This document shows, piece by piece, positions 18,987 through 39,600 of a DNA stretch of 64,000 nt. The stretch spans positions 1-64,000 of the forward strand of contig JANQJG010000098.1 in assembly GCA_028281785.1 (NCBI GenBank), in the 5' to 3' direction. The notes under the pieces are model-generated. The model was not told the DNA's origin. It did no database searches and saw only the letters and a list, made by a program, of their open reading frames with translations. Numbering within the stretch: position 1 is the first letter of the stretch; every line of letters begins with the position of its first letter. The position numbers and the translations under genes were made by a program. Origin of the DNA: Rhodospirillales bacterium (GTDB taxonomy: Bacteria > Pseudomonadota > Alphaproteobacteria > Rhodospirillales > Shumkoniaceae).

Positions 18987-19772
18987 ATGGGTGAATCCGA
19001 CGGACAGAAAACAAAGTGTTGCGGGGAATCGACAATCTTGACCACTCAGATTGAAATTGCGAAGCGCGCTTTGGGACTGCTGGACCTCACATCGCTGGGC
19101 GAGGACGACGGTGACGCGACCGTTTCCGCGCTCTGCGAGCGAGCCTACGGTCCCTGGGGCGCGGTGGCGGCGGTGTGCGTTTGGCCGCGTTTCGTCTCCC
19201 TGTGTCGGCAACGACTGGCGGAAACGGAGATTCGGGTAGCGGCCGTCGCCAACTTCCCCGAGGGGTCCGACGACATCCCGCGTGCCGTGGCGGAGACCAA
19301 GGAGATCCTCGATGCCGGCGGCGACGAGGTCGACGTGGTTTTGCCCTATGACGCATGGCTGAACGGCCGACGCGAGCAGGCGCGGGAGCTGGTGTCCCGC
19401 TGCAAGGAGGCCTGCGGGCCGGAGGGGCACCTCAAAGTCATCCTGGAAACGGGCCGCCTGGGCTGCGCCGAGAACGTGGCGGCCGCCGCGCGGGACGCCC
19501 TGGATGCGGGTGCCGACTTTATCAAGACATCGACCGGAAAGACCGAAAAGTCGGCCACCCCGGAGGCCGCCGCGGTCATGCTGGCGGCCATCCGCGAGGC
19601 CGGGTTGGCGGTTGGTTTCAAGGCGGCGGGCGGGATTCGTACGGTCCAGGATGCCGGCATTTATTTGGGTTTGGCGGATCTCATCATGGGGCCGGAATGG
19701 GCAAGCCCAGCCACCTTCCGGCTCGGCGCGAGCAGTCTGCTCGACAACCTCCTCGCCGAAACAGCTGAGTAG
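18987..19772 (+). CDS. deoC: Deoxyribose-phosphate aldolase family protein
   Basis: The 261-residue product is a class I aldolase of the DeoC family. The Schiff-base Lys is in DFIKTSTGKTEKSAT and the second catalytic Lys in VGFKAAGGIRT, with an upstream Asp in EVDVVLPYDAW. E. coli DeoC splits 2-deoxyribose-5-phosphate to acetaldehyde and glyceraldehyde-3-phosphate. The first 17 residues are not conserved in the family, and a TTG at 19038 could be the true start. It leads a rightward unit with an amidohydrolase 12 bp later. The link between a DeoC aldolase and an amidohydrolase is unusual, so it may act on a non-nucleoside sugar phosphate. Confidence 0.88.
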   Translation: MGESDGQKTKCCGESTILTTQIEIAKRALGLLDLTSLGEDDGDATVSALCERAYGPWGAVAAVCVWPRFVSLCRQRLAETEIRVAAVANFPEGSDDIPRAVAETKEILDAGGDEVDVVLPYDAWLNGRREQARELVSRCKEACGPEGHLKVILETGRLGCAENVAAAARDALDAGADFIKTSTGKTEKSATPEAAAVMLAAIREAGLAVGFKAAGGIRTVQDAGIYLGLADLIMGPEWASPATFRLGASSLLDNLLAETAE

Positions 19773-19784: not shown

Positions 19785-21326
19785 ATGGAAGCGACGACGT
19801 TGGTTCGCGGACGATACGTCCTGGAAGGCCTCGACGGGGACCGCCCCCTCGTTCATGAAGACGCGGCAGTTCTACTGAACGGTGACAAGGTTAGCGAGAT
19901 CGGTCCCTTCGATACCCTGAAAGATCGAAATCCGGGCGCCAAAATTGTCGGAACGGCCGAATCCGCCGTGATTCCCGGCCTCATCAACGCCCATCACCAT
20001 ATCGGCCTGACCCCTCTCCAACTGGGATCGCCCGACCATCCGCTGGAACTCTGGTTCGCGAGCCGGCTGGCGTTGCGCGACGTGGATCTGTATCTCGACA
20101 CCCTCTACTCGGCCTTCGAGATGATCGCCTCCGGCGTCACCACGGTGCAGCACCTACACAGCCGGGCCCCCGGCGGGCCGGAGCAGATCCTGCATGCGGC
20201 GGGGGAAGTGATTCGCGCCTACCGGGACATCGGCATGCGCGCTTCCTATTCCATCGCGCTCCGCGACCAGAACCGGCTGGTCTATGAGTCGGACGAGGCG
20301 TTTCTCCAGCGGCTTCCCGAAAGCCTGAGGCCGGAGATGGCGGAGTACTTTCGCCGTTTCACCATGCCGCTCGACGAGCAGGTCGCGGTGTTCGGGGATC
20401 TGCACGGAGCCTACAAGGGCGAACCGCGAACCCGCGTTCAGCTCGCGCCGGCCAATCTCCACTGGCTGTCGGATGCGGCCTTGGAGGCCGCCGCCGAGAT
20501 GGCCGAGCGCTTCGACGTTCCCATGCATATGCATCTGGTCGAAACGCCCTACCAGAAGATCTATGCACAGAAACGGACCGGCGGGACCGCCTTCGCCCAT
20601 TTGCATCGCTTCGGCCTGACAGGGCCCCGCATGACCATCGGCCACGGAACCTGGATGACCGAAGCCGACATCGAGCTTTGCGCCGACACGGGCACCTGCC
20701 TGTGTCACAACTGCAGCTCCAACCTGCGCCTGAAGAGCGGCATCGCGCCCGTCAACCGGTATCTGGAGCGCGGGGTCGCCGTCGCCATCGGAATCGACGA
20801 GGCGGGGATCAACGACGACCGCGACATCCTTCAGGAGATGCGTCTGGTCCTCAGGATGCATCGGGTTCCGGGGCATGGGTCGCCGTTTCCGACCCCGCCG
20901 CAGGTCCTCCGCATGGCCACCGAGCATGCCGCGAAAACGACTCCATTCGCGGCTGAGATCGGACGGCTGTCGCCGGGTCTCGCGGCGGACCTGACGGTCC
21001 TCGACTGGCGGGCGGTCACCCGTCCCTATCAGAGCGGCGATATCCCCTTCGTCGACGTGCTGGTGCAGCGCGCCAAATCCACATCCGTCCGCTCGGTGAT
21101 GGTGGCCGGAGAGCTGATCTACGATGACGGACGGTTCACCCGCGTCGACCGCGATGCCGCTCTCGACGAGATCGAAGCGCGCCTGGCCGCGCCGCTGACC
21201 GAGGCCGAGGAGCGCCGCCGCGCCTTGGCGCGGGAGGTCTTCCCCTATGTGGCGGCGTTCTATGCGGACGAGTCATGGGCTGTGCGGCCGGAGAAACCCT
21301 TCTATCGGTGGAACGACCGGGCGTGA
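19785..21326 (+). CDS. Amidohydrolase-superfamily enzyme (chlorohydrolase/deaminase type)
   Basis: A 513-residue metal-dependent hydrolase. The first metal motif is PGLINAHHHIGLTP (HxH), then MHMHLVETPY (His), TIGHGTWMTEADI (His) and GIDEAGINDDRD (Asp), the mononuclear-metal pattern of the AtzA/TrzN, guanine deaminase and SAH-deaminase subgroup. Such enzymes deaminate or dechlorinate purine- or triazine-like rings or N-heterocycles. The C-terminus returns to the beta-sandwich with GLAADLTVLDW. It lies 12 bp after deoC and 22 bp before a PuuE-like deacetylase, suggesting that ring-type nitrogen compounds are substrates. Exact substrate unknown. Confidence 0.85.
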   Translation: MEATTLVRGRYVLEGLDGDRPLVHEDAAVLLNGDKVSEIGPFDTLKDRNPGAKIVGTAESAVIPGLINAHHHIGLTPLQLGSPDHPLELWFASRLALRDVDLYLDTLYSAFEMIASGVTTVQHLHSRAPGGPEQILHAAGEVIRAYRDIGMRASYSIALRDQNRLVYESDEAFLQRLPESLRPEMAEYFRRFTMPLDEQVAVFGDLHGAYKGEPRTRVQLAPANLHWLSDAALEAAAEMAERFDVPMHMHLVETPYQKIYAQKRTGGTAFAHLHRFGLTGPRMTIGHGTWMTEADIELCADTGTCLCHNCSSNLRLKSGIAPVNRYLERGVAVAIGIDEAGINDDRDILQEMRLVLRMHRVPGHGSPFPTPPQVLRMATEHAAKTTPFAAEIGRLSPGLAADLTVLDWRAVTRPYQSGDIPFVDVLVQRAKSTSVRSVMVAGELIYDDGRFTRVDRDAALDEIEARLAAPLTEAEERRRALAREVFPYVAAFYADESWAVRPEKPFYRWNDRA

Positions 21327-21348
21327 CTCAGTAGGCGGTAGTGCGGGC

Positions 21349-22278
21349 ATGGACAGGCGGGATCTCCTTGGATATGGCGGCGATTGGCCCGATCTGCGCT
21401 GGCCGGGGGAGGCCCGAGTTGCAGTTTCGCTGGTGGTCAATGTGGAGGAGGGAGCCGAGCTTTCCATCGCCGACGGCGACGAGCGGAACGAGAGCGTCTA
21501 CGAGGCACGGGAAGAGGTCGTGGACACCGTCGACCCGTGCATGGAGAGTCATTTCGGCTATGGTCCCCGGGCGGGCTATTGGCGGATCGTCGACATCCTC
21601 GCCGATCATGGCGTTCCCGCCACCTTTTCCTGCTGCGGCCGCGCCGCCGAACGCCTTCCCTGGCTGATCCGAGATGCGGTCGGCCGTGGTCACGAGATCA
21701 GCTGCCATGGATGGCGCTGGGAAACCCACGCGCTTATGGAGCCCGAAGCGGAGCGGGAAGTCATCGCCCGCACCCATGCCGCCATCTCGCAAGCGGCCGG
21801 AATCGCTCCCGTCGGTTGGCACACCCGGTCGGCATCGACGGCGAACACCCGCCGGCTTCTCGTCGAACATGGCGGGTTTCTCTATGACTCCGACGCTTAT
21901 GACGACGACTGCCCGTACCTAGTCAGACAGGGCGATGTCGATCACGTGGTGCTGCCCTATGCATTCGACACCAACGACATGCGGTTCCAGCCGGGTGGCG
22001 GTTTTGTCCACGGCGAGGACTTCACCCGGTACTGCGTCGCCGCGTTCGAACGGCTGAGGCGCGAGGGGGCGGACGCGCCGCGTATGATGTCGGTCGGCCT
22101 GCATCTGCGTCTGATCGGCCGGCCGGCGCGGATCAACGCCCTCGACGATTTCCTGAAAGCCGTCAGGAACGGCGGTGGCGCCTGGTTCGCCACCCGCTCG
22201 ATGATCGCCCACCACTGGCGGGCGGGTGTCAGCCTCCCGGCTTGGCTGCCCCGGTCACCCGAAACCACGGACTCATAA
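21349..22278 (+). CDS. Polysaccharide deacetylase-family protein (PuuE-like), copy A
   Basis: The 309-residue product has the NodB-type fold as seen in PuuE, a polysaccharide-deacetylase-related allantoinase: VVNVEEGAELS near the N-terminus, FSCCGRAAERLP, GHEISCHGWRWETH, YDSDAYDDDCPY and GLHLRLIGRPARI. PuuE opens the hydantoin ring of allantoin, or acts on other cyclic ureides or amides. The frame opens about 34 codons upstream within the amidohydrolase gene; I start at the ATG at 21349, 22 bp after the amidohydrolase stop. Its 3' end overlaps the convergent racemase-like gene by 6 bp. A paralogue lies at 22928-23851 on the other strand. Confidence 0.82.
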   Translation: MDRRDLLGYGGDWPDLRWPGEARVAVSLVVNVEEGAELSIADGDERNESVYEAREEVVDTVDPCMESHFGYGPRAGYWRIVDILADHGVPATFSCCGRAAERLPWLIRDAVGRGHEISCHGWRWETHALMEPEAEREVIARTHAAISQAAGIAPVGWHTRSASTANTRRLLVEHGGFLYDSDAYDDDCPYLVRQGDVDHVVLPYAFDTNDMRFQPGGGFVHGEDFTRYCVAAFERLRREGADAPRMMSVGLHLRLIGRPARINALDDFLKAVRNGGGAWFATRSMIAHHWRAGVSLPAWLPRSPETTDS

Positions 22279-22935
22279 AGGCGAGCCGTCCCCCAGCAAC
22301 GCCGCGACCCGGCGAACCGCGGCGGGGACGGGCTCGATAATCGGCACGGAAAAGAGCGGCCTGAGGTCGCGTGCGGCTTCCGCCAGCGGTCCACCGCCGA
22401 TGACCACGGCCTCCGCACCGTCGATGTCGATCGCGGCCCGAACCGCCGCTTCGAGGGCGGTGAGCAGCCGCTCGGGATCGGACATGACGATTTGGGGGTC
22501 GCCTTCCGTCAGCCGGACCGAGACCAGGCCGTCGCCGAACCCGTAGTCCCGCGCGCAACGTTTGATCGCGGGGGCGAGGTCGGCCGTGGTCGTGGCGACG
22601 GAAAAGCGTCGGCCGGCAGCGGCGGCTTCGGCCATGCCGGCCTCGGCAATGCCGACGACCGGAATGGAGGTCAGGCGGCGGGCCGCCATGAGGCCCGGAT
22701 CGCCAAAGGCGGAGACGATCGCGGCGTCGGCGGCTGGCCCGGCCTCGCGAAACAACTCGGAGACGGCCTCGGCCGCCACGGTCAGGCCGGCTTCGTCGGT
22801 GATAAGAGGAACGCCATGCGAGACCGTCGCCCCGACAACGGTCAAGCCGCCGGTTGCCGCCGCCTTGGCGATGGCGACCATGCGCGCGGTGGTTCCGGCA
22901 TCGGTGTTGGGATTGACGAGCAGGACCTCAGGCAT
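22273..22935 (-). CDS. Asp/Glu/hydantoin racemase-like protein without catalytic cysteines
   Basis: The 220-residue product has the fold signatures of hydantoin/allantoin racemases: LLVNPNTDAGTTARM at the start, VSAFGDPGLMAARRL, VVGIAEAGMAEA and VVIGGGPLAEAARDL. In active racemases the two catalytic cysteines sit in a CFxDPG motif and a GCxG motif. Here the positions are Ala (VSAFGDPG) and Gly (VIGGGPL). The general architecture is kept while both acid/base residues are lost, so this is either a non-catalytic homologue, a binding subunit, or an enzyme with another mechanism. It overlaps the deacetylase B gene by 8 bp (co-transcribed) and the convergent deacetylase A gene. Confidence 0.78.
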   Translation of the reverse strand: MPEVLLVNPNTDAGTTARMVAIAKAAATGGLTVVGATVSHGVPLITDEAGLTVAAEAVSELFREAGPAADAAIVSAFGDPGLMAARRLTSIPVVGIAEAGMAEAAAAGRRFSVATTTADLAPAIKRCARDYGFGDGLVSVRLTEGDPQIVMSDPERLLTALEAAVRAAIDIDGAEAVVIGGGPLAEAARDLRPLFSVPIIEPVPAAVRRVAALLGDGSPL

Positions 22936-23851
22936 GGTCGTGGCCCAATCGCTGGGGAGGGGCCACCTCGCGGAAGGCTTCCGAGATGTCGAGGCGTCGC
23001 GCGATCCAGATCCGATCGCCGAGATCGGCCAACATCGAGAAGATCTCCTGGGCCGCGCGGAATCGCGCGGGGCGACCGCAGATCCGAAGGTGGAAACCGA
23101 TATTGAGGAGGCGCGGCTTGCCGGCTTCGGCCTCGGTCAGCAGGACCTGCAGGGCATCGCGAACATAGTCGATCATTTCCGACGACCGGGCAAAACCGTT
23201 GGGATGGAAGAACTTCATGTCGTTGCTGTCGAGCGCGTAAGGGACGACCAGCAGCGGCCCGCCGGCGACATCGAGATCCCAGTAGGGCAGGTCGTCATCG
23301 AAGGCGTTCGAGGTGTAGACAAAGCCCCTCGCGGCCAGCAACTCGCGGGTCCAGATACTCTCGCTCCCACGGCAGAAGAAGCCGAGCGGGCGCTGGCCCG
23401 TCGCGGCCTCGGTGACCTCGATGCAACGATCCAGGTCGGCCGCCTCCGACTCGCGATCGGCATAGTCGGAACTGGGGCGCCACCGCCAGCCATGACATGC
23501 AGGCTCGTGCCCCCTGCGCACGACTTCCGCCGCCAAACCGGGAACGCGCTCGACAGCGCGTCCGCAGAGGAAGAACGTCGCCGGCAGGTCCCGCGCGTCG
23601 AGCGCGTCCAGAAAACGCCACAGGCCCGCGCGCATCCCGTAGGCGAAGATCTGCTCCTGCCCGATATCGCGGGTGCCGGGTTCGACAACACTGAGCACCT
23701 CGCCCATCCGTTCCGAGGCGGCGTCGCCGTCGCCGACCTGAAGCTCCGCGCCTTCCTCGAAGTTGACGACGACGGACACGGCCAGACGCGCGCCGTTGGG
23801 CCAGGAAAAGTCGGGCGGGTTGCCCGCGTATCCGCGCAGGTCACGATGCAT
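22928..23851 (-). CDS. Polysaccharide deacetylase-family protein (PuuE-like), copy B
   Basis: A 307-residue paralogue of the protein at 21349-22278: VVNFEEGAELQ, FFLCGRAVERVP, GHEPACHGWRWRPS, YTSNAFDDDLPYW, NIGFHLRICGRPARF. The second position of the metal/His motif differs from copy A (ACHGWRWRPSSDY against SCHGWRWETH). It reads leftward, opposite to copy A, and its 3' end overlaps the racemase-like gene by 8 bp. Its start faces the SIS-domain operon across a 371-bp region, so the two units are divergent. It probably acts on a cyclic ureide, lactam or N-acyl substrate; which one is not clear. Confidence 0.82.
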   Translation of the reverse strand: MHRDLRGYAGNPPDFSWPNGARLAVSVVVNFEEGAELQVGDGDAASERMGEVLSVVEPGTRDIGQEQIFAYGMRAGLWRFLDALDARDLPATFFLCGRAVERVPGLAAEVVRRGHEPACHGWRWRPSSDYADRESEAADLDRCIEVTEAATGQRPLGFFCRGSESIWTRELLAARGFVYTSNAFDDDLPYWDLDVAGGPLLVVPYALDSNDMKFFHPNGFARSSEMIDYVRDALQVLLTEAEAGKPRLLNIGFHLRICGRPARFRAAQEIFSMLADLGDRIWIARRLDISEAFREVAPPQRLGHDHA

Positions 23852-24222
23852 CTTCTATCATCTCTTCGTCATGTGCATGGGGAAAGGAGGCTTGCCAACG
23901 TTCCGATCTGCCACCGAAATGTGCAATCAGGAAAAAATCGGGTCGGGATGATCAATTGTTGAACAGGGTGAGTTTGTTACATATATTTTTCCCGTACGGA
24001 GATTGACACAGCATGCGGATCTTAGGCTTGCGTTCAGGAACGGCCAAGTGGGCGCGGGGGAAGATGTTCAAAACCCCGTCGCGATCCTGTCGCGCCTTTG
24101 TCTCGCTTTTGGCTGCCACCCAAAGAACCTGCTTCTGATCATATCGGGAGAGCGGTCTCCCGTGGGTCAGCGTTCGCGGTGTCGCGAGCGTCGGATGTTC
24201 GTTTTTTCGGACGCGAAGCAGA
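23852..24222. promoter_or_regulatory. 371-bp divergent promoter region, no gene seen
   Basis: This region lies between deacetylase B (leftward) and the SIS/ABC operon (rightward) and should hold both promoters. An AT-rich part (about 23945-24000: GTTGAACAGGGTGAGTTTGT, then TACATATATTTTTCC) is the likeliest core. A GGTCTCCCGTG-rich part follows. Several open frames of 80 codons cross it, but none has a convincing start or family match. No operator palindrome was recognised. Confidence 0.4.
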
Positions 24223-25422
24223 ATGTCATTCCCAGAGGCCTCACCTGAAACCTCCAAGCCGGGGCAGCCGTTTCCCGAGCGGTTTGCCGATTTGCTCGCC
24301 GATGCGGTCGCGGACAGTCTCGATTTCCGGCTTATCGAGAAGGCTGCCAGAGAGGCGGCGGAACAATTCATGGCCGGCGATCGAACGAAGGCAAGCCGGC
24401 GGCTGTTCCTGGTCGGCTCGGGTGACAGTCTGTTCGCGGCGCTGTCGGCGCTCCCGGCGCTTCGGCGCTGGACCGGACTCATCGTCGAAGCGCGAACCTC
24501 GATCGAATTCTCCCGTTATGAGATTCCCGTCGTCCAGGATGGCGACGTCTTGGTCGCGGTCTCCAATTCGGGCGGTTCCTCCCGCACGCGGGAAGGCGTG
24601 CTACTCGCCAAGGAACGCGGGTTGCCGACCGTCGGCGTGACCGGTTCGTCCGATGGCCCCCTCGCGCAGTCGGCCGACATCGTCCTTCATCGTCCCGTCC
24701 AGGCGTATTCCGGCGCGCCGGAGATCGTTCGCCGAGCCCTTCTGCATACCTCGGAGTTTCTAGCGGCGTTGGCCGCCCTCTACACATTCGGCCTCAACCT
24801 CGGGGTGGCGCGGGGGCAGATCGCGGCCTCGATGCGCGACGAGACGATCAGCGAGCTTCGCGGCGCTGTCGCGTCCCTCGGCACCATCGCCGCGGCCTCC
24901 GAACCCGCCGTGGTCGAATTCCTCAACGGGGTTCCGGACCTCGACACGGTCTTCGTCCTCGGCGCCGGCCCGAACCGCGGATGCGCCGAATACTGCGCCG
25001 CCAAGTTCCATGAGCAGGTGCCCATCAACGGCGTTCCGCAGGACCTCGAGGAGTGGGCCCATCTTCAATACTTCCTGACCTATTTCAGCTGGCGCAGCCG
25101 GGGGCCCATCGTCGTTCTGGCGCCGGAAGGCAACGCGTTGGACCGTGCGCGGGAGATCGTGACGGGCATTCGCTCCGCCGGGGGCCGGTCGCTGCTGGTG
25201 ACGAATTCGACCGAGCGCTTCGAGGACGCGGAGCTGACATTCCGCATCGAGAAGCCGGCGGGTGAGCTGTTGACCCCGGCCACGTTTCACATCCCCTGCC
25301 AGCTGATGACCTTGCATTTGGCGCGCCTGCGCGGCGTGAACCCGACACCCCTCCGGCGCCGCGACGACTTCTGGCTGATCCGGAAGGGCAACGTTCTTTC
25401 CTCGCGGGCCGATTTGAAATGA
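24223..25422 (+). CDS. SIS-domain protein A (GlmS-isomerase/FrlB-like deglycase candidate)
   Basis: The 399-residue product contains two SIS (sugar isomerase) folds: residues about 60-190 (LFLVGSGDSLFAAL, VAVSNSGGSSRTREG) and about 240-370 (FVLGAGPNRGCAEYCAAKF). The motif LEEWAHLQYF corresponds to the E-x2-H region of GlmS and of fructosamine-6-phosphate deglycases. There is no glutamine amidotransferase domain. Such stand-alone proteins isomerise or deglycate phosphorylated amino sugars, for example fructoselysine-6-P. It is the first gene of an operon with an ABC importer, a second SIS protein and two PfkB kinases, which fits uptake, phosphorylation and deglycation of an amino-sugar conjugate. 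Substrate not shown by sequence. Confidence 0.85.
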   Translation: MSFPEASPETSKPGQPFPERFADLLADAVADSLDFRLIEKAAREAAEQFMAGDRTKASRRLFLVGSGDSLFAALSALPALRRWTGLIVEARTSIEFSRYEIPVVQDGDVLVAVSNSGGSSRTREGVLLAKERGLPTVGVTGSSDGPLAQSADIVLHRPVQAYSGAPEIVRRALLHTSEFLAALAALYTFGLNLGVARGQIAASMRDETISELRGAVASLGTIAAASEPAVVEFLNGVPDLDTVFVLGAGPNRGCAEYCAAKFHEQVPINGVPQDLEEWAHLQYFLTYFSWRSRGPIVVLAPEGNALDRAREIVTGIRSAGGRSLLVTNSTERFEDAELTFRIEKPAGELLTPATFHIPCQLMTLHLARLRGVNPTPLRRRDDFWLIRKGNVLSSRADLK

Positions 25423-25497
25423 TCGGATCGCGACGGGAGCAAAGGCGGCTCGACGTCCGCCACGACAAGACCACCATCGAAACAGGAGGTGTTCATC

Positions 25498-26553
25498 ATG
25501 AACGCTAAAATCACCCGCCGAACCTTCGGCAAGGGCCTGCTCGCTACCGGTGTGGCCACGGCGACGGTTTCGGCACCCTACATCGCCCGGGCTGCGGACA
25601 AGGAACTCGTGGTGATCAGCTATGGCGGTGCCCTTCAGGAACCCCACCGCTGGCTCGGCGACCAGCTGGAAGCGAAGCATGCGGGTCTCAAGGTTCGCCT
25701 GATCCCCAGCGAATCCCAGGACATCGTCGCCCAGATCAAGGCGGCGCAAGGCTACAGTCCCTACGATGCCATGCCCAATGGCGAGCCGCCCCACCTGATC
25801 GCCATGAAGGAAGGCTACATCCAGAAGGCCGATCCCAGCAAGCTTTCCAACTACGGGAATGTCTTCCCCGAATTCATCGAGAAGAGCCAGGGATATGGCG
25901 TGCCCGCGACGTTCTCGCTGATCGGCCTCGCCTACAACACGGAGCTGGTCAAGACGCCGCCGACAAGCTGGGCCGATATGTGGAACGAGGAATACAAGGA
26001 TCTGGTCGGCATCTGCCGGACCTCCTCGAACCTGGGCCTCGGGACGCTGGCGGTCACGGCGAAGATCTTCGGCGGTTCCGAGGACAATCTCGAACCAGGT
26101 TGGGAAAAGCTCAAGGCCCTCAATCCGATCGCCGGACGCAGCCCGCGTATCCTCGCCCAGATGATGGAACGCGGCGAGATCGGGATCGCCCCGCTATGGA
26201 ACAACGACGCCGCCGTCGCCGAGGCCAAGGGACTCCCGATCCGCTTCGTGAAGCCGGATCCCGGGCCGGTCGCCATCGTCTCCATCATGTCGGCGATCAC
26301 CAACACCCGCCATCCCGATCTCGTCAACGAGTGGATGGACGGTATCATCAGCGCCGAGTACCAGGCGATGGCGGCGGATGCGCCCTACTATTTCGGCGTC
26401 ACGGTCAAGGGTGTCGCCATCCCCGAGGCGGCGCGCCCCTACACGCCGTCGACACCGGAGGAGGTGACGAAACTCCAGACCGTCGACTGGAGCAAGATCG
26501 TGCCGGTCCGTCCGCAGCTTGTCGATCAGTTCGACCGCGCCTTCGCCATCTGA
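25498..26553 (+). CDS. ABC transporter substrate-binding protein, polyamine/opine class
   Basis: The 351-residue product begins with a twin-arginine-like signal (TRRTFGKGLLATGVA, cleaved near ARA-AD) and a type-2 periplasmic-binding fold of the spermidine/putrescine (PotD) family (VVISYGGALQEPH, TPPTSWADMWNEEY, PVAIVSIMSAITNTRHPD). The start ATG at 25498 follows AGGAGG by 9 bases. It feeds the ATPase and two permeases encoded 2 kb downstream. The same transporter class includes mannopine-type opine importers of Agrobacterium, which makes an Amadori or opine ligand plausible next to SIS and PfkB genes. Ligand residues cannot be assigned here. Confidence 0.87.
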   Translation: MNAKITRRTFGKGLLATGVATATVSAPYIARAADKELVVISYGGALQEPHRWLGDQLEAKHAGLKVRLIPSESQDIVAQIKAAQGYSPYDAMPNGEPPHLIAMKEGYIQKADPSKLSNYGNVFPEFIEKSQGYGVPATFSLIGLAYNTELVKTPPTSWADMWNEEYKDLVGICRTSSNLGLGTLAVTAKIFGGSEDNLEPGWEKLKALNPIAGRSPRILAQMMERGEIGIAPLWNNDAAVAEAKGLPIRFVKPDPGPVAIVSIMSAITNTRHPDLVNEWMDGIISAEYQAMAADAPYYFGVTVKGVAIPEAARPYTPSTPEEVTKLQTVDWSKIVPVRPQLVDQFDRAFAI

Positions 26554-26577
26554 ATCACAAACAAACGCGGGAACGCC

Positions 26578-27678
26578 ATGACGGAAATGGTCGACCGGGA
26601 CACGTCTCCCATGCTCGCGGACATCCGGCGTCAACCGGATGTCATCGAGGGCATCGCCGCGCGCGCCAAGGAGATCGTCGGCTTCGCCGATGCCCATCTG
26701 AGGCCGGTGGGTGGCGGGCGGCTGGTTGCCTTTGGAAGTGGCGACGGATGGTTCGCGGCCCGCGCCACGACCGCGCGGGCCGCGAACTTTTCCGCTTCGA
26801 GCGGGCTGGAGATGCTGGCGTTCACCGCCCCGACCATGGGGCCGGACGACAGGGCGCTGGCCATTTCCATGTCCGGAAATGTCGACCGCAGCGTCGAGGC
26901 CGCGCAGGCGGCGATTGAGCGCGACGTCCCCTCCGCGGCCCTGGTCAACGGGACCGGCGGCCGCCTGGCCGCGCTGGGGCTGCCGACGCTCTCTCTCGAT
27001 CTCGAGGACATCGCCCCGTTCCTGTGCGGCACCTCCTCCTATCTCGCGACCCTCTCGGTTCTGCGCATCCTGTCCGCGGCAAAAGCCGAGGTCGCGCGGA
27101 TCGTCGACACCCTGCGCCTGACGGCGCGGGCTCTGCCGGCTTTCCTGGCGCAGGCCGACGCGGTGGCCGCCGAGACTGCCACGACGCTGGCCCCGCGTCC
27201 CAGGGGGGTCAGGCTGCTGTCGGCCGGAGGGGCCGGACTGGCGATCGCGGATTATGGCGCCGCCAAACTGGTCGAACTCACGCGGACACCGTCCTGGACG
27301 GACGACATCGAAGAGTTCGCCCACCGCCAGTTCTGGAGCGCCGACGCCGGCGAACTGGTGGTGTTCCTGCCGACCACGCCGCTGGTCGCCGAGTATGCGG
27401 ACCGCAGCGCGGAAGCCCTAGCCGAGATGGGGTTCGCGACGCTGGCGATCGGCCCCCGGCCCTGGTTAGGTTCCCACGCGCGGTGGTCGATCCCCATCGA
27501 TGATGCCGACGCGGATCCGCTGATCTGCGACGCGATTGCCCTGCAACTCCTGGCCTATCGTCTGGCCGAGGCCGAGGGCCTCAATCCGAACCGGCGTCAA
27601 CACCTGAAGGACGACATTTTGCGATTCCGTGTGAGCCGTATGCTGACACGACGGTCTCTTGTCGGCACGGGACAATGA
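26578..27678 (+). CDS. SIS-domain protein B
   Basis: The 366-residue product is a second two-SIS-domain protein, clearly different from the one at 24223-25422. The first domain reads LVAFGSGDGWFAARATT, then LAISMSGNVDRSVEAAQAA (where the paralogue has SNSGGSSRT). The second has IADYGAAKLVELT and IEEFAHRQFW, corresponding to EEWAHLQYF of protein A and keeping the Glu and His. Two unequal SIS proteins in one operon suggest a hetero-oligomer, or successive deglycase and isomerase steps. It overlaps the PfkB gene that follows (ATGA), so the kinase is translationally coupled to it. Confidence 0.82.
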   Translation: MTEMVDRDTSPMLADIRRQPDVIEGIAARAKEIVGFADAHLRPVGGGRLVAFGSGDGWFAARATTARAANFSASSGLEMLAFTAPTMGPDDRALAISMSGNVDRSVEAAQAAIERDVPSAALVNGTGGRLAALGLPTLSLDLEDIAPFLCGTSSYLATLSVLRILSAAKAEVARIVDTLRLTARALPAFLAQADAVAAETATTLAPRPRGVRLLSAGGAGLAIADYGAAKLVELTRTPSWTDDIEEFAHRQFWSADAGELVVFLPTTPLVAEYADRSAEALAEMGFATLAIGPRPWLGSHARWSIPIDDADADPLICDAIALQLLAYRLAEAEGLNPNRRQHLKDDILRFRVSRMLTRRSLVGTGQ

Positions 27679-28559
27679 CACCGCGGGTCGGCGTCTTCGG
27701 ATATCTCTCGATCGACACGCTGATCCATGACAACCGCGCCTATGACGGGGTACCCGGCGGCGCCGCCCTCTATGCCGCGCTGGCGGTGATCGCGGCCGGT
27801 GGAACGCCCATCCTCCATGCCACGCGCGGACAGGATTTTCCGAAACATGTTCTTTCTTCCATCAGTACGCTCGGCGCCGACCTCTCGGCCGTGAGGGACG
27901 GCGACGGCCCCAGCCGGCGCACCCGCATCGCCTATGGCGTAGGCGAGTCGAGGACGTCCGACCACTACGCGGATCCAGACTGGTGGGAACGGACGGAGGC
28001 GCTTTTACCGCCGCTGCCTTCCACCGTCCTGGATGCCGCGGTCATGACGCCCATGCCGCCCGGCCATGCGGCCAGGATCTCGGCGGCGGTGGCCGACGGC
28101 ACCCCGATCGTCGCGGATACGAGCGAGGCGTTTGCCGGACGTTCGCCGCAGGCGCTTTTGGATTTGCTGCCGTCCATCAGTGTTTTCGTGCCCAGCACCT
28201 CTGAGACCCGCCTTCTTGTTCCGCGGGTTGACGACGATGCGGCCGCCAGGACCCTCGCGGCCCGAGGTTGCGCCGTGATTCAGAAACGCGGACCGGACGG
28301 CCTGGTTTGGGCCGACCGAACGGGGATCGTGGCAAGGCGGGCGGCGCAGGCCGCGGCGGTCGTGGATCCGACGGGCGCCGGGGACACGGTGGCCGGCGCC
28401 GTGGCCACCGCTCTGGCTCGGGAGTCTTCGCCCGAGGCTATCCTGGCTTTCGCGGTCGACATAGCGGCCATGACGATCGGGGCCCCGGGGCCGGCGGGGC
28501 TTGGGCTCGATCCCGGGCCGTTCAGAGGAGAGAAGACGCAGACATGCATGTCCAGATAG
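27675..28559 (+). CDS. PfkB-family sugar kinase A
   Basis: A 294-residue ribokinase/PfkB-fold protein: FGYLSIDTLIHDN at the N-terminus, the GGAALYAALAV substrate loop, and the ATP/catalytic motif VVDPTGAGDTVAGAVATA with the Asp general base. The N-terminal lid is short compared with ribokinase. It probably phosphorylates the imported sugar-amine at C6 before the SIS step, as FrlD does in fructoselysine degradation. It starts within the stop of SIS protein B, and its last 16 bp overlap the ABC ATPase gene, so the genes form one transcript. Confidence 0.88.
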   Translation: MTPRVGVFGYLSIDTLIHDNRAYDGVPGGAALYAALAVIAAGGTPILHATRGQDFPKHVLSSISTLGADLSAVRDGDGPSRRTRIAYGVGESRTSDHYADPDWWERTEALLPPLPSTVLDAAVMTPMPPGHAARISAAVADGTPIVADTSEAFAGRSPQALLDLLPSISVFVPSTSETRLLVPRVDDDAAARTLAARGCAVIQKRGPDGLVWADRTGIVARRAAQAAAVVDPTGAGDTVAGAVATALARESSPEAILAFAVDIAAMTIGAPGPAGLGLDPGPFRGEKTQTCMSR

Positions 28560-29587
28560 ACGGCATCGACAAATGGTTCGGCGCCAACCACGTGCTCAGG
28601 CGGTGCGATCTGTCGGTCGAGCAAGGTGAGCTGATCACGCTGCTCGGTCCTTCCGGCTGTGGGAAAACGACCCTTCTGCGCTGTTTGGCGGGGTTCGAGC
28701 TGCCGGATGGCGGCAGCGTCTCGATCGGCGAGGACAACGTGACCCATTTGGCGCCGAACCATCGCAATGTCGGTTTCGTGTTTCAGAGCTACGCCCTGTT
28801 TCCCCATCTGACGGTGGTCGAGAATGTGGGATATGGGCTGGCCGTTCGTCGGGTCTCGAAGGCCAAGCGGGTGCGGCGGGCGATGGAAACCCTGGAACTG
28901 GTGGGGCTTCAGCAGTTCGGCGACCGCTATCCGGCCCGGCTGTCCGGCGGCCAGCAGCAGCGGGTCGCGCTCGCCCGGGCGCTGGTGCTGCAGCCCAAGG
29001 TCCTGCTTCTCGACGAGGCCTTCAATGCCCTCGACGCGAAACTGCGTGTCGCCATGCAGGTCGAGCTTCGCAAGCTGGTGAAGAAAGTGGGTATCACGAC
29101 CATCTGCGTTACCCATGATCAGACCGAGGCCCTGACGATCAGCGACCGGATCGCGGTCATGTTCGAAGGACGCATCGACCAGATGGGGACCCCCTCCGAG
29201 GTCTATGAGCGGCCCTGCACGGCCTTCGTCGCCGACTTCCTCGGCACGGCCAACCTGCTCAGGCGACGGTCGGAGGGCGGATCGCTGGAGGTCGGTCCCG
29301 GCATCCGGATTTCCAGCACCTTTGACGGCGGCGTCATCGTGGTGGTCCGGCCGGAGGACGTGATGCTGTCCCAGCCCATAGAAGGGGATGGATGGGGAGG
29401 CCGGATCACCTTCTCCCGGCTTGTGGGGCCCAGCATCGAGTTCGAAATCGACACCGGGGAGGATCGTCCCGTGCGTGTCCTCTCGCCGCGGCGGGGCGGC
29501 GACCGGTATTCGGTGGGCGACCGCGTGGCGCTTGCCCTGTCGAGCCGGGATGCCTGTGTCGTGCTTCCGCATCAGGAGGCGTCATGA
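28544..29587 (+). CDS. ABC transporter ATP-binding protein, PotA-type
   Basis: The 347-residue product has Walker A GPSGCGKTTLLR, the signature RLSGGQQQRVALARAL, Walker B VLLLDEAFNALD, the switch His in CVTHDQTEAL and a C-terminal TOBE-like domain (VVVRPEDVML). Walker B reads DEAFNALD instead of the usual DEPLSALD, keeping the catalytic Glu. The ATG at 28544 is used; the open frame upstream lies in the kinase gene and is not part of it. It energises the importer formed with the two permeases that follow in ATGA-overlapped order and the binding protein at 25498. Confidence 0.92.
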   Translation: MHVQIDGIDKWFGANHVLRRCDLSVEQGELITLLGPSGCGKTTLLRCLAGFELPDGGSVSIGEDNVTHLAPNHRNVGFVFQSYALFPHLTVVENVGYGLAVRRVSKAKRVRRAMETLELVGLQQFGDRYPARLSGGQQQRVALARALVLQPKVLLLDEAFNALDAKLRVAMQVELRKLVKKVGITTICVTHDQTEALTISDRIAVMFEGRIDQMGTPSEVYERPCTAFVADFLGTANLLRRRSEGGSLEVGPGIRISSTFDGGVIVVVRPEDVMLSQPIEGDGWGGRITFSRLVGPSIEFEIDTGEDRPVRVLSPRRGGDRYSVGDRVALALSSRDACVVLPHQEAS

Positions 29588-30495
29588 CGGCGGCGGCCCG
29601 GCCGGCGAATACGTTCGGCGGCGGGTTCGCGCGCATGCTGTCGCGCGGGGGTTTGTGGCCCGCCTTGCCGGCCATCGTCTTCTTGACGGTTTTCTTCGCG
29701 ATGCCGCTGGCGGTTCTGTTCGCCTTCGGATTCGTGACCATCGAGCGCGGCGTCGTCCAGCCCGGGACATTCACCTTCCAATACTTCATCGACACGCTGA
29801 GCGACGACCTGTTCTGGAAGGTCTGGTGGCGGTCCTTCTGGGTCGGGACGGTATCGACCGTCCTGTGTCTCTTCCTCGCGTATCCGCTCGCCTACGTCTA
29901 TACGCTCGTGGGCCGGTTCTGGCAGACTGTCATTCTGGTCGTGACCATCTCGCCCCTGCTGACGAGTGCGCTGGTCCGAACCTACGCTTGGCTGGTGATC
30001 CTCGGCGGGCGGCGGGGCGTGATCAATTCCATGCTGATAGAGCTCGATCTGATCGAGCGGCCCATCCGGTTTCTCTTTTCCGACTTCGCCGTCATCGTGG
30101 GCATGACGCAGATCCATCTGCCCTTCATGATCCTTCCCCTGATCACGGTCCTGTCCGCCCGGGACCGCACCCTGGAGCAGGCATCCCTCGGCCTCGGCGC
30201 CAGCCGGACCGAGACCTTCTTCCGCGTCGTCCTGCCCGTCAGTCTTCCGGGGATCGTGGCGGGGTTCGCGCTGGTGTTCGCGATTTCCTACACCAACTTC
30301 ATCATTCCCCAGTTGCTGGGCGGCGGGAACTACACCACGCTCGCGGTCCGGGTCTACGAGTTCATCGTCGTCATCCTCGACTGGAACAAGGGGGCGGTGC
30401 TGGCGTTCCTGCTCCTGGCCAGCTGCTTCCTGTTCGTGCTCGGGATTACCTATCTGGGCAATCTTGCCATGCGCTGGTCGGAGGCCGACCGATGA
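29584..30495 (+). CDS. ABC transporter permease, PotB-type
   Basis: A 303-residue membrane protein with about six helices and the EAA loop (EQASLGLGASRTETFFRVVL) that contacts the ATPase. TYAWLVILGGRRGVIN is typical of the spermidine/putrescine PotB group. The start overlaps the ATPase stop (ATGA) and the end overlaps the next permease in the same way. Together with the second permease it forms the inner-membrane channel. Confidence 0.92.
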   Translation: MTAAARPANTFGGGFARMLSRGGLWPALPAIVFLTVFFAMPLAVLFAFGFVTIERGVVQPGTFTFQYFIDTLSDDLFWKVWWRSFWVGTVSTVLCLFLAYPLAYVYTLVGRFWQTVILVVTISPLLTSALVRTYAWLVILGGRRGVINSMLIELDLIERPIRFLFSDFAVIVGMTQIHLPFMILPLITVLSARDRTLEQASLGLGASRTETFFRVVLPVSLPGIVAGFALVFAISYTNFIIPQLLGGGNYTTLAVRVYEFIVVILDWNKGAVLAFLLLASCFLFVLGITYLGNLAMRWSEADR

Positions 30496-31346
30496 CCGAG
30501 TCGGCAACCATGGAACAAGGGGCACCCCGCCATCGCCGGAGGGTGGGAATGGGCGCCGTCGACTGGGTCGGGGCGGTCGTGCTCGGGTGTGTCGCCTGTT
30601 TCACGCTCCTGCTCCTGATCATGCCGAGCGTCATCGTCGTCGCCATCTCCTTCACGGAGAAGGAGTACATCGGGTTTCCCCCGGAGGGCTTCTCCTTCCG
30701 CTGGTTCGTCGAGCTGCTCGGCCGGGACCAGATCATCGAGTCGGCGGTGACGAGCCTCAGGATTGCCTCATTCACGACCGTTTTCGCCCTGCTTCTGGGC
30801 GTCTCCGCCGCCTTCGCGCTGGTGAGGGGCCGATTCCCGGGACGGATGGCGGTCACGGCCTTCGTGGTGGCGCCGCAGATGTTGCCGGGCATGGTCATCG
30901 GCATCGCCATCCTTTTCTTCGGCGCGTACTTTGCCTTCTACCAGTCAGATGCGATGGTGATCATCGCGATGACCGTGTTCTGCCTGCCATTCGCCGTTCG
31001 CCTCGTCATGGCGCGACTGGCGGTGCTGGATCCGACGCTCGACGAGGCGTCGGTCGGCCTTGGCGCGACCAAGTCGCAGACCTTCCTCCGCATCACGATG
31101 CCGCAGGTGATGCCGGCCGTGATCGGCGCCGGGGCCTTCGTTTTCATCGAGGCCTTCGACAACATCACGGTGGCGCTGTTCACGTCCTCGCCGCGCGGGC
31201 GGCCGCTCTCGGTGGAGCTCTACAATCTCGTCCAGTTCGACAGCAGCCCGATCGTCGCCGCCCTGTCCAGCCTCGAGATTCTCTTTGCGCTGCTGATCAT
31301 GATCGTCCTGGCGCGGAGCATCGGCCTCGACCGGTTGCGGACCTGA
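30492..31346 (+). CDS. ABC transporter permease, PotC-type
   Basis: The 284-residue product has about six helices and the EAA loop DEASVGLGATKSQTFLRITM, plus the usual PotC-like FTEKEYIGFPPEGFSFRWF near the first periplasmic loop. The start at 30492 overlaps the previous gene by ATGA. It is followed by a PfkB kinase gene after 3 bp. About 20 hydrophilic residues precede the first helix. Confidence 0.92.
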   Translation: MTESATMEQGAPRHRRRVGMGAVDWVGAVVLGCVACFTLLLLIMPSVIVVAISFTEKEYIGFPPEGFSFRWFVELLGRDQIIESAVTSLRIASFTTVFALLLGVSAAFALVRGRFPGRMAVTAFVVAPQMLPGMVIGIAILFFGAYFAFYQSDAMVIIAMTVFCLPFAVRLVMARLAVLDPTLDEASVGLGATKSQTFLRITMPQVMPAVIGAGAFVFIEAFDNITVALFTSSPRGRPLSVELYNLVQFDSSPIVAALSSLEILFALLIMIVLARSIGLDRLRT

Positions 31347-31349
31347 CCC

Positions 31350-32285
31350 GTGACGGTGCCACGCCTGGTCATACTCGGACAGATCACCCTCGACGACGTG
31401 GTGCCGGCACGGCCCGGGCCTTGGGCGCGCCAGTTGGGTGGGAACGCCCTCTACGCCGCGGCTGGTGCGCGGATGCTTCTACGGCCGGGCGATGTGGGGG
31501 TGGTCTCCCGGATTGGTTCGGGGATGCCCTTCGACGTCAAGGCGTTGCTGGGCAGGTTTGGGGTCGCCGCGGCCCTGCGCCGGATCGACCAGGAACATCT
31601 GATCGAGTGGCTGATCTATGAAGAGGATGGCTCAAGACGCTCCCTGCCCCGCAACCTGTCCTTGAGGCAGAGGGTCGGGGAGGGGCAGCGGGCGGACGAA
31701 GACTATCTGCGGTACCTTGAGGCCCAAAGCCCCGAAGCGACAGATCTGCCGGAGGAATGGCGCCAGGCGAAGGGGTTTCATCTTGCTCCCCAGGTCTTCG
31801 AAAGGCACCGGGCGAGCCTGGACGCGCTTGCCGGCGGGGCGTTCGTCACACTTGATCCATCGCCGCACTATAGCCGGTATCTGAAACCCCGCGCCTATGC
31901 TCAAAGTTTGGCCGGCGCCTCGGCGGTTCTGCCGAGCGAACAGGAGATCCGTCATCTCATGCCCGAGGGGTCGACCGACCCGAAGGCCCTGGCCGATATC
32001 GCGGCGGGGTTGATGAACGCTGGCATTCCCGAGGTCGTCATCAAGGCCGGGGCGCGGGGCTGCGTCGTCGCTGTCGACGGCGGGGTGGGATGGGTCGATG
32101 CCATGCCCGTGCCGAGCGTCGTCGACCCTACCGGGGCGGGCGACGCGTTTTGCGGCGCCTATGCGGCGGCCCGGGTGCTCGGGTTGACCCCCTTCGACGC
32201 GGCCGGCAAGGCCGTGGCCGCGGGCGCCGCCGTTATCGCCTGTTCTGGCGCGGAAGCAGCGTTCGATCCAACTGAACGGCGGTGA
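31350..32285 (+). CDS. PfkB-family sugar kinase B
   Basis: A 311-residue ribokinase-fold kinase, starting with GTG 3 bp after the permease stop. It has LVILGQITLDDVV, the LGGNALYAAAGARML substrate region and the catalytic VVDPTGAGDAFCGAYAAA. An unusual insertion near residues 90-130 (RRSLPRNLSLRQRVGEGQRA) sets it apart from ribokinase. It is the last gene of the operon. Two different PfkB kinases in one transcript could act on two sugars or on two positions of one intermediate. Confidence 0.87.
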   Translation: MTVPRLVILGQITLDDVVPARPGPWARQLGGNALYAAAGARMLLRPGDVGVVSRIGSGMPFDVKALLGRFGVAAALRRIDQEHLIEWLIYEEDGSRRSLPRNLSLRQRVGEGQRADEDYLRYLEAQSPEATDLPEEWRQAKGFHLAPQVFERHRASLDALAGGAFVTLDPSPHYSRYLKPRAYAQSLAGASAVLPSEQEIRHLMPEGSTDPKALADIAAGLMNAGIPEVVIKAGARGCVVAVDGGVGWVDAMPVPSVVDPTGAGDAFCGAYAAARVLGLTPFDAAGKAVAAGAAVIACSGAEAAFDPTERR

Positions 32286-33900: not shown

Positions 33901-34242
33901 ATGACCTTTGTCGTCACGGAAGCCTGCATCAAGTGCAAGTACATGGACTGCGTGGAGGTGTGTCCGGTCGATTGCTTCTATGAGGGTGAAAACATGCTGG
34001 TGATCCACCCCGATGAGTGCATCGACTGTGGCGTCTGCGAGCCCGAGTGTCCCGCCGAGGCGATCTTGCCCGATACGGATGCGGGAGCCGAGACGTGGGT
34101 GGAGCTCAACCGCAAGTATTCGGAGCAGTGGCCGAACATCACGCGCCAGGGCGAGACGCCGCCGGACGCGGATGCGTACAAGGGCGCGCCGGACAAGTTT
34201 GCGCAGTATTTCAGCCCGAGTCCGGGGAAGTCGGCGGAATGA
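33901..34242 (+). CDS. fdxA: 7Fe ferredoxin (FdxA family)
   Basis: The 113-residue product matches Fdx[21 protein letters not shown] (Cys 9, 12, 17, 21, 25) and a second cluster [16 protein letters not shown] (Cys 40, 43, 46, 50), giving a [3Fe-4S] and a [4Fe-4S] site. It carries electrons in the cytoplasm. The C-terminal extension (residues 60-113) with [11 protein letters not shown] is typical of the family. It is preceded by an Rrf2-like regulator and followed by a truncated IS110 remnant. Confidence 0.95.
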
Positions 34243-34716: not shown

Positions 34717-35511
34717 TTACGCGGGCACACCGCGTGTGTTTCTGCGTCCGCGACGGTCGCGTTTGCCGGGACCGGTTTCGGGCTCCTCGGCGGCACTGAG
34801 AATTTTCAACGCCAAGGCCTGGGCCTGTTTCACCCGCTGTCGCTCAAGCAGCTCGGCGTCGTCTTCCAAACCGTTTTCAATGAACCTGACAAGCTCCCGC
34901 CAGCTCTTGACAGACTCGGTCCGGCGTTCCGGCGTCGACAACCCCAAGCGCGTGTAACGGGCGACCTGGCGGGCCAGCTGAAAAATGATGTCGCACAGCT
35001 TCTCATTGCCGGAGCGCGCCGCGAGGACATAGTTCATGCGCGCGCTGACCCGGAAGTGGACCTCGAGCTCGTTGTCCGTTTCCACATTCTGCTCGAGAAG
35101 CCCGCTGCCCTCCTTGAGAATACGCAGGCATTCGGGATCGGAACGCCGCGCGGCCAAGCGGGCCGCATGCCCCATCAGCACGGCCCGGATGTCGAAGATG
35201 TCGTGGACCTCCCGCGTTGTCAGGCGGGTGACCTGAGCGCCGCGCCGGGGGATGATCTCGACAAGCCCTTCCTTTTCGAGAATCCGCAGCGCATCACGCA
35301 CCGGGCCGCGGCTGACCCCGAACTGTTCCGAAAGGCTTTGCTCGGTGACGGATTCACCCGGCTGGTATTCTTCCCGAAGAATCGCCTCGGCCACCTGTTC
35401 CGCGATCTGCTCCGCCAGGGAGAGTGTACGCCAGCGGCCTCGCGGTTTCGGGAACAGCGAGGTTTCGATCGCGTCCTCAGCCCACCAGACTTGCATCTCG
35501 CTTTTGTCCAT
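34717..35511 (-). CDS. GntR-family regulator, FadR/FCD subfamily
   Basis: A 264-residue product with a GntR winged helix at residues 30-95 (AEQIAEQVAEAILREEYQPG, SEQFGVSRGPVRDALRILEK, GLVEIIPRRGAQVTRL) and a C-terminal FCD effector domain of helical type. FCD proteins often bind an organic acid through a metal site. Operators of the form TNGTNNACNA, expected for this subfamily, are present upstream of its own gene and at three promoters of nearby genes, which makes it the likely regulator of the TTT transporters and aldolase. It is separated by 87 bp from the KDG kinase gene upstream, so it may have its own promoter. Confidence 0.9.
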   Translation of the reverse strand: MDKSEMQVWWAEDAIETSLFPKPRGRWRTLSLAEQIAEQVAEAILREEYQPGESVTEQSLSEQFGVSRGPVRDALRILEKEGLVEIIPRRGAQVTRLTTREVHDIFDIRAVLMGHAARLAARRSDPECLRILKEGSGLLEQNVETDNELEVHFRVSARMNYVLAARSGNEKLCDIIFQLARQVARYTRLGLSTPERRTESVKSWRELVRFIENGLEDDAELLERQRVKQAQALALKILSAAEEPETGPGKRDRRGRRNTRGVPA

Positions 35512-35545
35512 GGGGTCCTCGCAATACCCGGCGTCAACATCCGGC

Positions 35546-35555
35546 GTGTTTACAA
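35546..35555. promoter_or_regulatory. Candidate autoregulatory operator of the GntR gene
   Basis: GTGTTTACAA lies 35 bp upstream of the GntR start. It matches nine of ten positions of the FadR-type consensus TNGTNNACNA and resembles the TTGTCAACAA sites at 39589, 39703 and 45107. Autoregulation is an inference from this match. Confidence 0.45.
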
Positions 35556-35598
35556 TATGTGCGTTGCGTTCGGCCAGTCCATTCGCAACTCACGGGAA

Positions 35599-36549
35599 TC
35601 AGCGCATGACGAACATATTGGTACTCAGCATTTCATCAAGATCCGCCTTGTTCGGCAGGGCCTCGATGTTACCGGGCAGGCGAACCGACCATCCAGCGAC
35701 GGCATTGCCCAGGGCCACCGCGTCCCGCAACGAACGATCCTCTAGCAGGCCGGCGATATACCCTGCGGCGAAGCTGTCGCCGGCGCCGAAGCGGTCGACC
35801 GGCTTCGCCAAGGGATACCCAGGGATCGCCTCCGCGCCGTCCGGCGTCGACAGGACCGCGCCGTCGACGCCGGTCTTGAGCACGACATGTGACAAGCCGA
35901 GACCGTGCAGGTAGCGCAAAATGTCCTTGTCCTTGGCGACACCCGTGAGCTTGATCATGTCTTCCCGCCCGGCGAGCACGTGGTCGGCCCGGCGCATCAT
36001 CGCTTCCAGGCACGGCCTGGCTTCCTCGGGCGGCCACACCTTGGCGCGGTAGTTCGGATCGAAGACGATGGTGACGCCCTTCGCCACCGCGATGTCGATG
36101 GCGCGCTCTACCGCAGCGCGGCAGGACGGGGACAGGCCCGGCGTGATCCCGGTCAAATGCAGCATGCGCGCCGACGCGATGGCATCCTCGGCCACGTCGT
36201 CCGGGCTCATCCCGGAAAATGCCGAGTCCTTGCGGTAGTAGTACACGGCCGATCGGCCCAGCGGCCGATTCTCTCGGAAGAACACGCCCGTCGGTGAGTC
36301 CCCGACCAGCCGGACATGCGAAACATCGACCCCTTCCGCCCGCATCACGCTCAAAACGTAGTGTCCGAACTCATCGTCGCCCAACCGGCTGATCCAGCTT
36401 GCCGAATGCCCCAGCTTGGCGACGCCCGCCGCGACGGTGCTCTCTGCGCCGCCGGGCCGGCGTTCGAACTCGGCGCAGTAGCGCAGCCGCCCGCCGCTTT
36501 TTGCGACGAGAACCACGCAGGTCTCACCGAGGGTCACCAGCTCCGGCAT
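35599..36549 (-). CDS. kdgK: 2-keto-3-deoxygluconate kinase (PfkB family)
   Basis: The 316-residue product matches KDG kinases: YYYRKDSAFSGMSPDDV, FDPNYRAKVWPPEEA, and the catalytic DRFGAGDSFAAGYIAG (Asp in GAGD). It phosphorylates 2-keto-3-deoxygluconate to KDPG, the central step of hexuronate and aldonate degradation. It begins 3 bp after the TctA stop, so it belongs to the TctCBA operon. That suggests the transported substrate is an aldonate, uronate or aldarate that feeds 2-keto-3-deoxygluconate. Substrate specificity within the PfkB family is inferred from the motifs around residues 90-115. Confidence 0.85.
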   Translation of the reverse strand: MPELVTLGETCVVLVAKSGGRLRYCAEFERRPGGAESTVAAGVAKLGHSASWISRLGDDEFGHYVLSVMRAEGVDVSHVRLVGDSPTGVFFRENRPLGRSAVYYYRKDSAFSGMSPDDVAEDAIASARMLHLTGITPGLSPSCRAAVERAIDIAVAKGVTIVFDPNYRAKVWPPEEARPCLEAMMRRADHVLAGREDMIKLTGVAKDKDILRYLHGLGLSHVVLKTGVDGAVLSTPDGAEAIPGYPLAKPVDRFGAGDSFAAGYIAGLLEDRSLRDAVALGNAVAGWSVRLPGNIEALPNKADLDEMLSTNMFVMR

Positions 36550-36552
36550 GGG

Positions 36553-38055: not shown

Positions 38056-38067
38056 GCTCCCCCACCC

Positions 38068-38502: not shown

Positions 38503-38541
38503 GACGTTCGCCTCTTCGATCCTTTCCCGCCTTCCTGGCGG

Positions 38542-39522: not shown

Positions 39523-39588
39523 CGTGCTCCTCCTTGTTTGCATCGTGGCAGCCGGATGACGGCCTATCACATTATCGCAAACATACAT

Positions 39589-39600
39589 ATTGTCAACAAT
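39589..39600. promoter_or_regulatory. GntR-type operator upstream of tctC set 1
   Basis: ATTGTCAACAAT is a 12-bp site containing TTGTCAACAA, which matches the FadR-subfamily consensus TNGTNNACNA. On the minus strand it contains TTGACA and so overlaps a -35 box of the leftward tctC promoter (-10 less clear). It is 67 bp upstream of tctC. Confidence 0.7.

Follow-up and report, generated by a model that had tools for sequence, protein, structure and literature searches.

A conserved gene set with two SIS proteins, PfkB kinases and heterocycle-type enzymes in Alphaproteobacteria: a candidate catabolic cluster for a sugar/N-heterocycle conjugate

In the use of fructoselysine or fructose-asparagine (E. 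coli frlABCD; Salmonella fra, PMC4072780, PMC4941530; B. subtilis frlBONMD, PMC12632257), an importer and one kinase work with one two-domain SIS deglycase that carries a Glu and a His. In pseudouridine catabolism (PsuK/PsuG, PMC9247573), a PfkB kinase phosphorylates the nucleoside, which is then cleaved. Here, we analyse a gene cluster related to both schemes, found in a stretch of 64,000 nucleotides from a Rhodospirillales bacterium (GenBank assembly GCA_028281785.1, contig JANQJG010000098.1, positions 1 to 64,000; hereafter the window). The original prediction, made from the sequence of this stretch, had placed an operon of two different SIS proteins, two PfkB kinases and a PotABCD-type importer at 24223–32285. 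The functional unit is larger and spans 19785–32285: an amidohydrolase (amidoH), two PuuE-like hydrolases (PDA1 and PDA2) and a racemase-family protein (HydRac) belong to it. The upstream limit of the original prediction falls short of the conserved set, which reaches 19785.

We analysed the conservation of this set from both SIS proteins. A scan of a genome collection with the first one, SISA, gave ten close relatives (46–58% identity) in Jiella, Aureimonas, Kandeliimicrobium, Pseudoruegeria, Roseibium, Geminicoccaceae and other Alphaproteobacteria, together with metagenome-assembled genomes labelled Pelagibacterales and Immundisolibacterales. At nine of these, SISA, the second SIS protein (SISB) and a kinase occur with homologues of amidoH, at least one PuuE-like hydrolase and HydRac; the tenth, L014 (loci carry the prefix L), ends at a contig edge. 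SISB was sought in the genome-collection scan and in samples of the class, of the phylum and of the order to which L015 belongs; in all, 16 loci including that of the window have it. Among 384 further genomes sampled from the class, the SISB profile matched four, all with E ≤1e-100 and nothing intermediate, and it matched none of ~398 other genomes drawn from the phylum. The sample of the order of L015 gave one new SISB locus, L090, as well as weak matches of 90–99 bits in L091 and L092, which are lone SIS proteins. Plasmid searches with SISB and with both kinases (KinA and KinB) returned no match, and those with SISA led to a PfkB/SIS/BtpA/Bmp operon of M. huakuii.

A second SIS protein is present at all 15 SISB loci with context on both sides (L056 is excluded since a contig end cuts its context). 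At 13 of them it is SISA, and L057 and L090 carry SISC, a third type. All three types occur in Jiella (L013/L094) and in the genomes of L015 and L017. Every one of the 16 SISB loci has a kinase from a single PfkB clade, and at most of them the set is joined by amidoH, PuuE-like and/or HydRac genes, under several importer types and in several families. PotABCD is replaced by an oligopeptide-type importer at four loci (L016, L018–L020), and L058 carries a Bmp/RbsA-type importer together with a 2OG-Fe(II) oxygenase. As the importer type varies, the enzymes and not the importer form the constant part of the set.

The genes of the window are listed in Table 1. From SISA to KinB, the spacing between successive genes is 75, 24, −4, −16, −4, −4 and 3 bp. 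Pfam and NCBIfam searches confirm the SIS, PfkB, ABC ATPase and binding-protein (SBP) assignments; the co-oriented arrangement foreseen in the original prediction is borne out, with eight genes at 24223–32285 in place of the nine that it counted, and its view of a catabolic unit with its own importer is supported. No protein of this segment passes the curated cut-off for any named function. The best model of SISA is GlmS with 77 bits against a cut-off of 381, and that of both kinases is ribokinase, with 48 and 58 bits against a cut-off of 300. Regarding the importer, the PotABCD fold class is complete in ATPase, two permeases and PotD-like SBP, and the cut-offs for polyamine-importer specificity are missed (PotD, 57 bits vs 582; potA subfamily TIGR01187, 319 vs 356). 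Elsewhere, a PotD-like binding protein is tandemly duplicated ahead of SISB, at L057:11066-13182 and L090:7968-10071.

Table 1. Genes of the conserved set and their positions in the window
Gene	Product	Position	Strand	Remark
amidoH	TRZ/ATZ-type amidohydrolase (deaminase family)	19785..21326	+	conserved with the cluster
PDA1	PuuE-allantoinase-like hydrolase	21349..22278	+	under the PuuE cut-off
HydRac	Asp/Glu/hydantoin racemase family	22273..22935	-	
PDA2	second PuuE-like hydrolase	22928..23851	-	
SISA	two-domain SIS protein, 399 aa	24223..25422	+	GlmS/FrlB-type site intact (equivalents of Ser303, Glu488, His504)
SBP	PotD-like periplasmic binding protein	25498..26553	+	twin-arginine-like signal MNAKITRRTFGKG
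SISB	divergent two-domain SIS paralogue, 366 aa	26578..27678	+	Gly at the Ser303 equivalent
KinA	PfkB-family kinase, SIS-associated clade	27675..28559	+	partner of SISB (from distance correlation)
PotA-like	ABC importer ATPase with TOBE domain	28544..29587	+	
PotB-like	permease	29584..30495	+	matches PotB/PotH models
PotC-like	permease	30492..31346	+	no Pfam match; orthologues 58-71% identical
KinB	second PfkB-family kinase	31350..32285	+	partner of SISA (from distance correlation)

The AlphaFold2 models of the two SIS proteins (predicted local distance difference test score of 90 for SISB and 83 for SISA) match the isomerase domains of GlmS/GFAT, AgaS and other two-domain SIS structures. We numbered residue positions by mapping onto E. 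coli GlmS. The equivalents of Glu488 and His504 are kept in SISA (13/13) and SISC (5/5); in SISB, the His504 equivalent is kept in 16/16 and the Glu488 equivalent in 14/16, with Lys replacing the catalytic Glu in the SISB of one genus (L058:4331-5491 and L059:9848-10972). The Ser303 position separates the types: it is Ser in SISA (12/13), SISC (5/5) and the lone relatives (11/11), and Gly in all 16 SISB proteins. Loss of Thr352 was also considered as a defect of SISB only and was rejected, because Val occupies this position in several lone SIS relatives too; therefore, what distinguishes SISB is the loss of Ser alone. The motifs named in the original prediction (SNSGGSSRT with EEWAH, and SMSGNVDRS with EEFAH) are real and conserved across the related loci, and the two SIS proteins are, as it held, truly different; each is conserved and the doubling is old. 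In the tree, SISB forms one clade and SISA another; the second SIS protein of L057 is SISC rather than SISA and was left out of the SISA clade. The sister group of SISA (91/86) consists of lone SIS proteins from Chloroflexota, Actinomycetota, Bittarella and a Mesorhizobium plasmid. E. coli FrlB, GlmS and AgaS lie outside the SISA/SISB/lone-SIS clade (99/93 support), on long branches, and the GxGD and LEEWAH/EEFAH motifs common to SISA and SISB are not found in FrlB.

Among the kinases, KinA and KinB are separate clades within a larger group that holds most of the kinases beside lone SIS proteins, and E. coli FrlD, RbsK, PsuK, KdgK and FruK fall outside this group (99/98). The FrlD model NF007321 is not among the matches of KinA or KinB. 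Both SIS and both kinase genes are present at seven loci, of which four are close relatives; across these seven, the distance correlations are 0.94 for SISA–KinB and 0.92 for SISB–KinA, and 0.82 and 0.78 for the crossed pairs. Leave-one-out analysis keeps this order in most sets; it is lost or weakened without L016 or L021. KinA follows SISB wherever KinA is present, and KinB follows SISA in L016, L018–L020 and L058/L059. On these sequence comparisons, a pairing of SISA with KinB and of SISB with KinA is supported by distance correlation and often by gene order.

Upstream of SISA, the two PuuE-like hydrolases score 298 bits (PDA1) and 278 bits (PDA2) with the PuuE model TIGR03212, below its cut-off of 424.6 bits. 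A canonical PuuE is encoded on another contig of the same genome; thus, PDA1 and PDA2 are paralogues that probably act on another ring. At L059, canonical PuuE and allantoate amidohydrolase genes lie near the set. The deoxyribose-phosphate aldolase gene deoC (18987–19772, above the TIGR00126 cut-off) lies just upstream of amidoH; it was considered as a cluster member and rejected, with no match at L012–L021 or L056–L059. Downstream of the cluster are an FdxA-like ferredoxin gene (33901–34242) and a separate cluster at 34717–45004, possibly for sugar-acid use, that comprises a GntR/FCD regulator, a PfkB protein like 2-keto-3-deoxygluconate kinase (35599–36549), TctA/TctC-type transporters and a DapA-like protein.

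Relatives of SISA in other phyla show a recurring context. Lone SIS relatives lie beside PfkB and BtpA/SgcQ genes (e.g. L006, L022 and L030), at L006 also with a Bmp-type importer, and those of Anaerolineae (L027, L031 and L032) adjoin Indigoidine_A/PsuG, the pseudouridine-5'-phosphate glycosidase family. The Anaerolineae operon at L032:7985-11843 has the order PsuG, PfkB, SIS and BtpA; the known pseudouridine pathway has no place for SIS or BtpA. BtpA of one close type (46–58% identical to that of L057) adjoins the cluster in 8/16 genomes and is on a small contig in a ninth. Two further contexts were observed. Beside SISB at L058:3076-4269 and L059:11036-12262, the regulator is a fusion of a LacI DNA-binding domain with an IF-2B domain (MtnA/ribose-bisphosphate-isomerase-like). 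A Streptosporangium plasmid (L008:1-18795) carries BtpA and SIS genes near homologues of folE, queE and queD and several phosphotransferases; this may be a cluster for a 7-deazapurine natural product.

From the gene content, conservation, residue patterns, clade membership and pairing, we tentatively propose that 19785–32285 is a catabolic cluster for an imported sugar/N-heterocycle conjugate, either nucleoside-like or an amine-linked sugar; this is our best explanation, held at somewhat short of an even chance, and its substrate, order of steps and reactions are all predicted. The PotABCD-type importer would take up the conjugate, and KinB, plus KinA where present, would phosphorylate the sugar. 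SISA, through its GlmS/FrlB-type Glu/His pair, would then open the sugar ring and cleave or rearrange the C—N link, with a sugar phosphate plus an amine or base as products. The duplicated SISB, whose phosphate pocket is altered, may act on the KinA product in a further, related step or form a hetero-oligomer with SISA. Finally, amidoH could deaminate the heterocycle, HydRac racemise it and PDA1/PDA2 open its ring. More hesitantly, we consider it possible that this is a new pathway for damaged or modified nucleosides, or for sugar-amine adducts of ureide-type rings. Two kinase/SIS pairs would then carry out the C—N cleavage instead of a nucleosidase or phosphorylase, with the SIS pair functionally split, and the lone SIS/PfkB/BtpA(/PsuG) operons of other phyla would represent simpler relatives of this pathway. 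As specific substrates, arginine-derived hydroimidazolones, t6A/ct6A, vicine, spiroiminodihydantoin nucleosides and streptothricin were considered and dropped as unsupported; each accounts for part of the genes.

Several observations weigh against a conjugate as substrate. SIS enzymes are not known to cleave the ordinary N-glycosidic bonds of bases. BtpA, frequent in the relatives, is absent from the window cluster, which has the GxGD-motif SIS and the clade PfkB of an SIS/PfkB/BtpA module, and the only BtpA of the genome is distant and on another contig. L015, L017, L058 and L059 keep a single clade kinase with both SISA and SISB, and a KinA-profile search of these four whole genomes found no KinA. 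Therefore, duplication of the SIS gene is a conserved trait, unlike that of the kinase gene; comparison of gene order across genomes, which had been suggested as a check of the original prediction, upholds the two SIS genes and not the two kinases, and the two phosphorylation steps that it foresaw are not a fixed feature. The pairing signal comes from a small sample of seven loci and could be produced by linkage alone. Finally, amidoH and PDA1 are found in SIS-free settings too: in Salipiger, Methylobacterium and a comamonad they stand next to importers of SsuABC-like or PotABCD-like type, and the PotD-like SBP there is a 25–32% relative. On a Salipiger plasmid, the region L044:429-9701 encodes such an SIS-free cyclic-amide module, with a PDA1 homologue, an amidase, a dihydropyrimidinase, two Asp/Glu racemases and a PotABCD importer.

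Since heterocycle genes are found without SIS genes and with importers of their own, two modules could serve two compounds, and this is the main rival. The amidoH/PDA/HydRac genes with PotABCD would handle a cyclic ureide or aminated heterocycle, and the kinase/SIS pairs an unrelated amino sugar or glycated amine, with only regulation shared, as in nitrogen scavenging. At L058, the SIS genes accompany a Bmp importer and the fetched DNA contains no amidoH, which fits such a division. Nevertheless, both gene sets stand together at most SISB loci, in several families and with several importer types, and the window cluster has only one importer, so that we regard two separate modules as unlikely. 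A fructosamine (Amadori) or Heyns pathway, in which a kinase and then an SIS deglycase yield glucose-6-phosphate and an amino acid and the two pairs serve two glycation isomers, would account for the two pairs, for SIS, PfkB and importer in the FrlB/FrlD and FraB/FraD scheme, and for the required Glu and His of SISA. We judge it quite unlikely: KinA and KinB are a clade apart from FrlD, the shared SIS motifs are foreign to FrlB, and the constant partners are heterocycle enzymes. As the SISA relatives go with PfkB, BtpA/SgcQ, Bmp importers and PsuG, a plain fructosamine pathway is less likely than a sugar/N-heterocycle conjugate. The Amadori, opine or amino-sugar substrate of the original prediction loses ground on the same points, namely kinases that are not FrlD-like, SIS proteins that are not FrlB-like, and amidohydrolase, PuuE-like and hydantoin-racemase genes as constant partners. 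An amino-sugar catabolic set of deaminating isomerases (NagB-II or AgaS kind) with an ordinary polyamine importer is very improbable. SISB does match NagB-II weakly, and the fold resembles AgaS and GlmS; however, the score with NF046059 is 21 bits against a cut-off of 430, no amino-sugar deacetylase or phosphotransferase-system genes were recognised beside the set, and the conserved heterocycle enzymes would be left unexplained.

Within the conjugate pathway, a further question is whether SISA and SISB are subunits of one hetero-oligomeric enzyme, in which SISB gives a His, and structure, to the SISA site. In GlmS, this His is supplied by the neighbouring subunit. SISB never occurs without SISA or SISC in the 15 complete contexts, and it combines an invariant His with the lost pocket Ser and, in L058/L059, a Lys for the Glu. 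In contrast, SISB tracks KinA more closely than SISA (0.92 vs 0.78) and keeps the Glu in 14/16; as Val at the Thr352 position is shared with several lone SIS relatives, only its Ser loss sets it apart. We consider a hetero-oligomer somewhat doubtful.

The families in this cluster are individually known. In our literature searches, whose coverage excludes most subscription journals, we found no description of the set, its SIS and kinase clades or the BtpA link, so the combination of genes, the clades and the tie to BtpA appear to be new. The analysis defines a gene set for a nutrient and gives a lead to function for three orphan groups: the BtpA/SgcQ family, this SIS clade and the PfkB clade that partners it. 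Should SIS enzymes cleave nucleoside-like conjugates, this would be a new way of freeing a base from its sugar. The paired duplication (SISA–KinB and SISB–KinA), with one phosphate pocket altered, would also be a clean case of a sugar-phosphate enzyme splitting its function.

Compared with the known systems, the SIS proteins share with the GlmS/GFAT isomerase domain its fold (template modelling score ~0.7) and the Glu488/His504 equivalents; unlike GlmS, SISA and SISB have no glutaminase domain and no Lys603 equivalent, and Asp takes the place of Thr302. Allantoin/purine ring catabolism has PuuE-like and racemase-family genes in common with the cluster, with PDA1 and PDA2 below the PuuE cut-off. 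Pseudouridine catabolism offers the same logic of a PfkB kinase acting before cleavage, and SISA relatives adjoin PsuG in Anaerolineae; KinA and KinB are nevertheless outside the E. coli PsuK branch, and no PsuG (Indigoidine_A) is among the genes of 19785–32285, being found only with distant SIS relatives. With FrlB and FraB, the SIS proteins share two SIS domains with a Glu and a His, the pair invariant in SISA and the His in SISB. The cluster departs from the frl and fra systems in having a pair of SIS proteins and a pair of kinases that belong to separate clades, in its motifs, and in the additional presence of genes for an amidohydrolase, PuuE-like hydrolases and a racemase-family protein.

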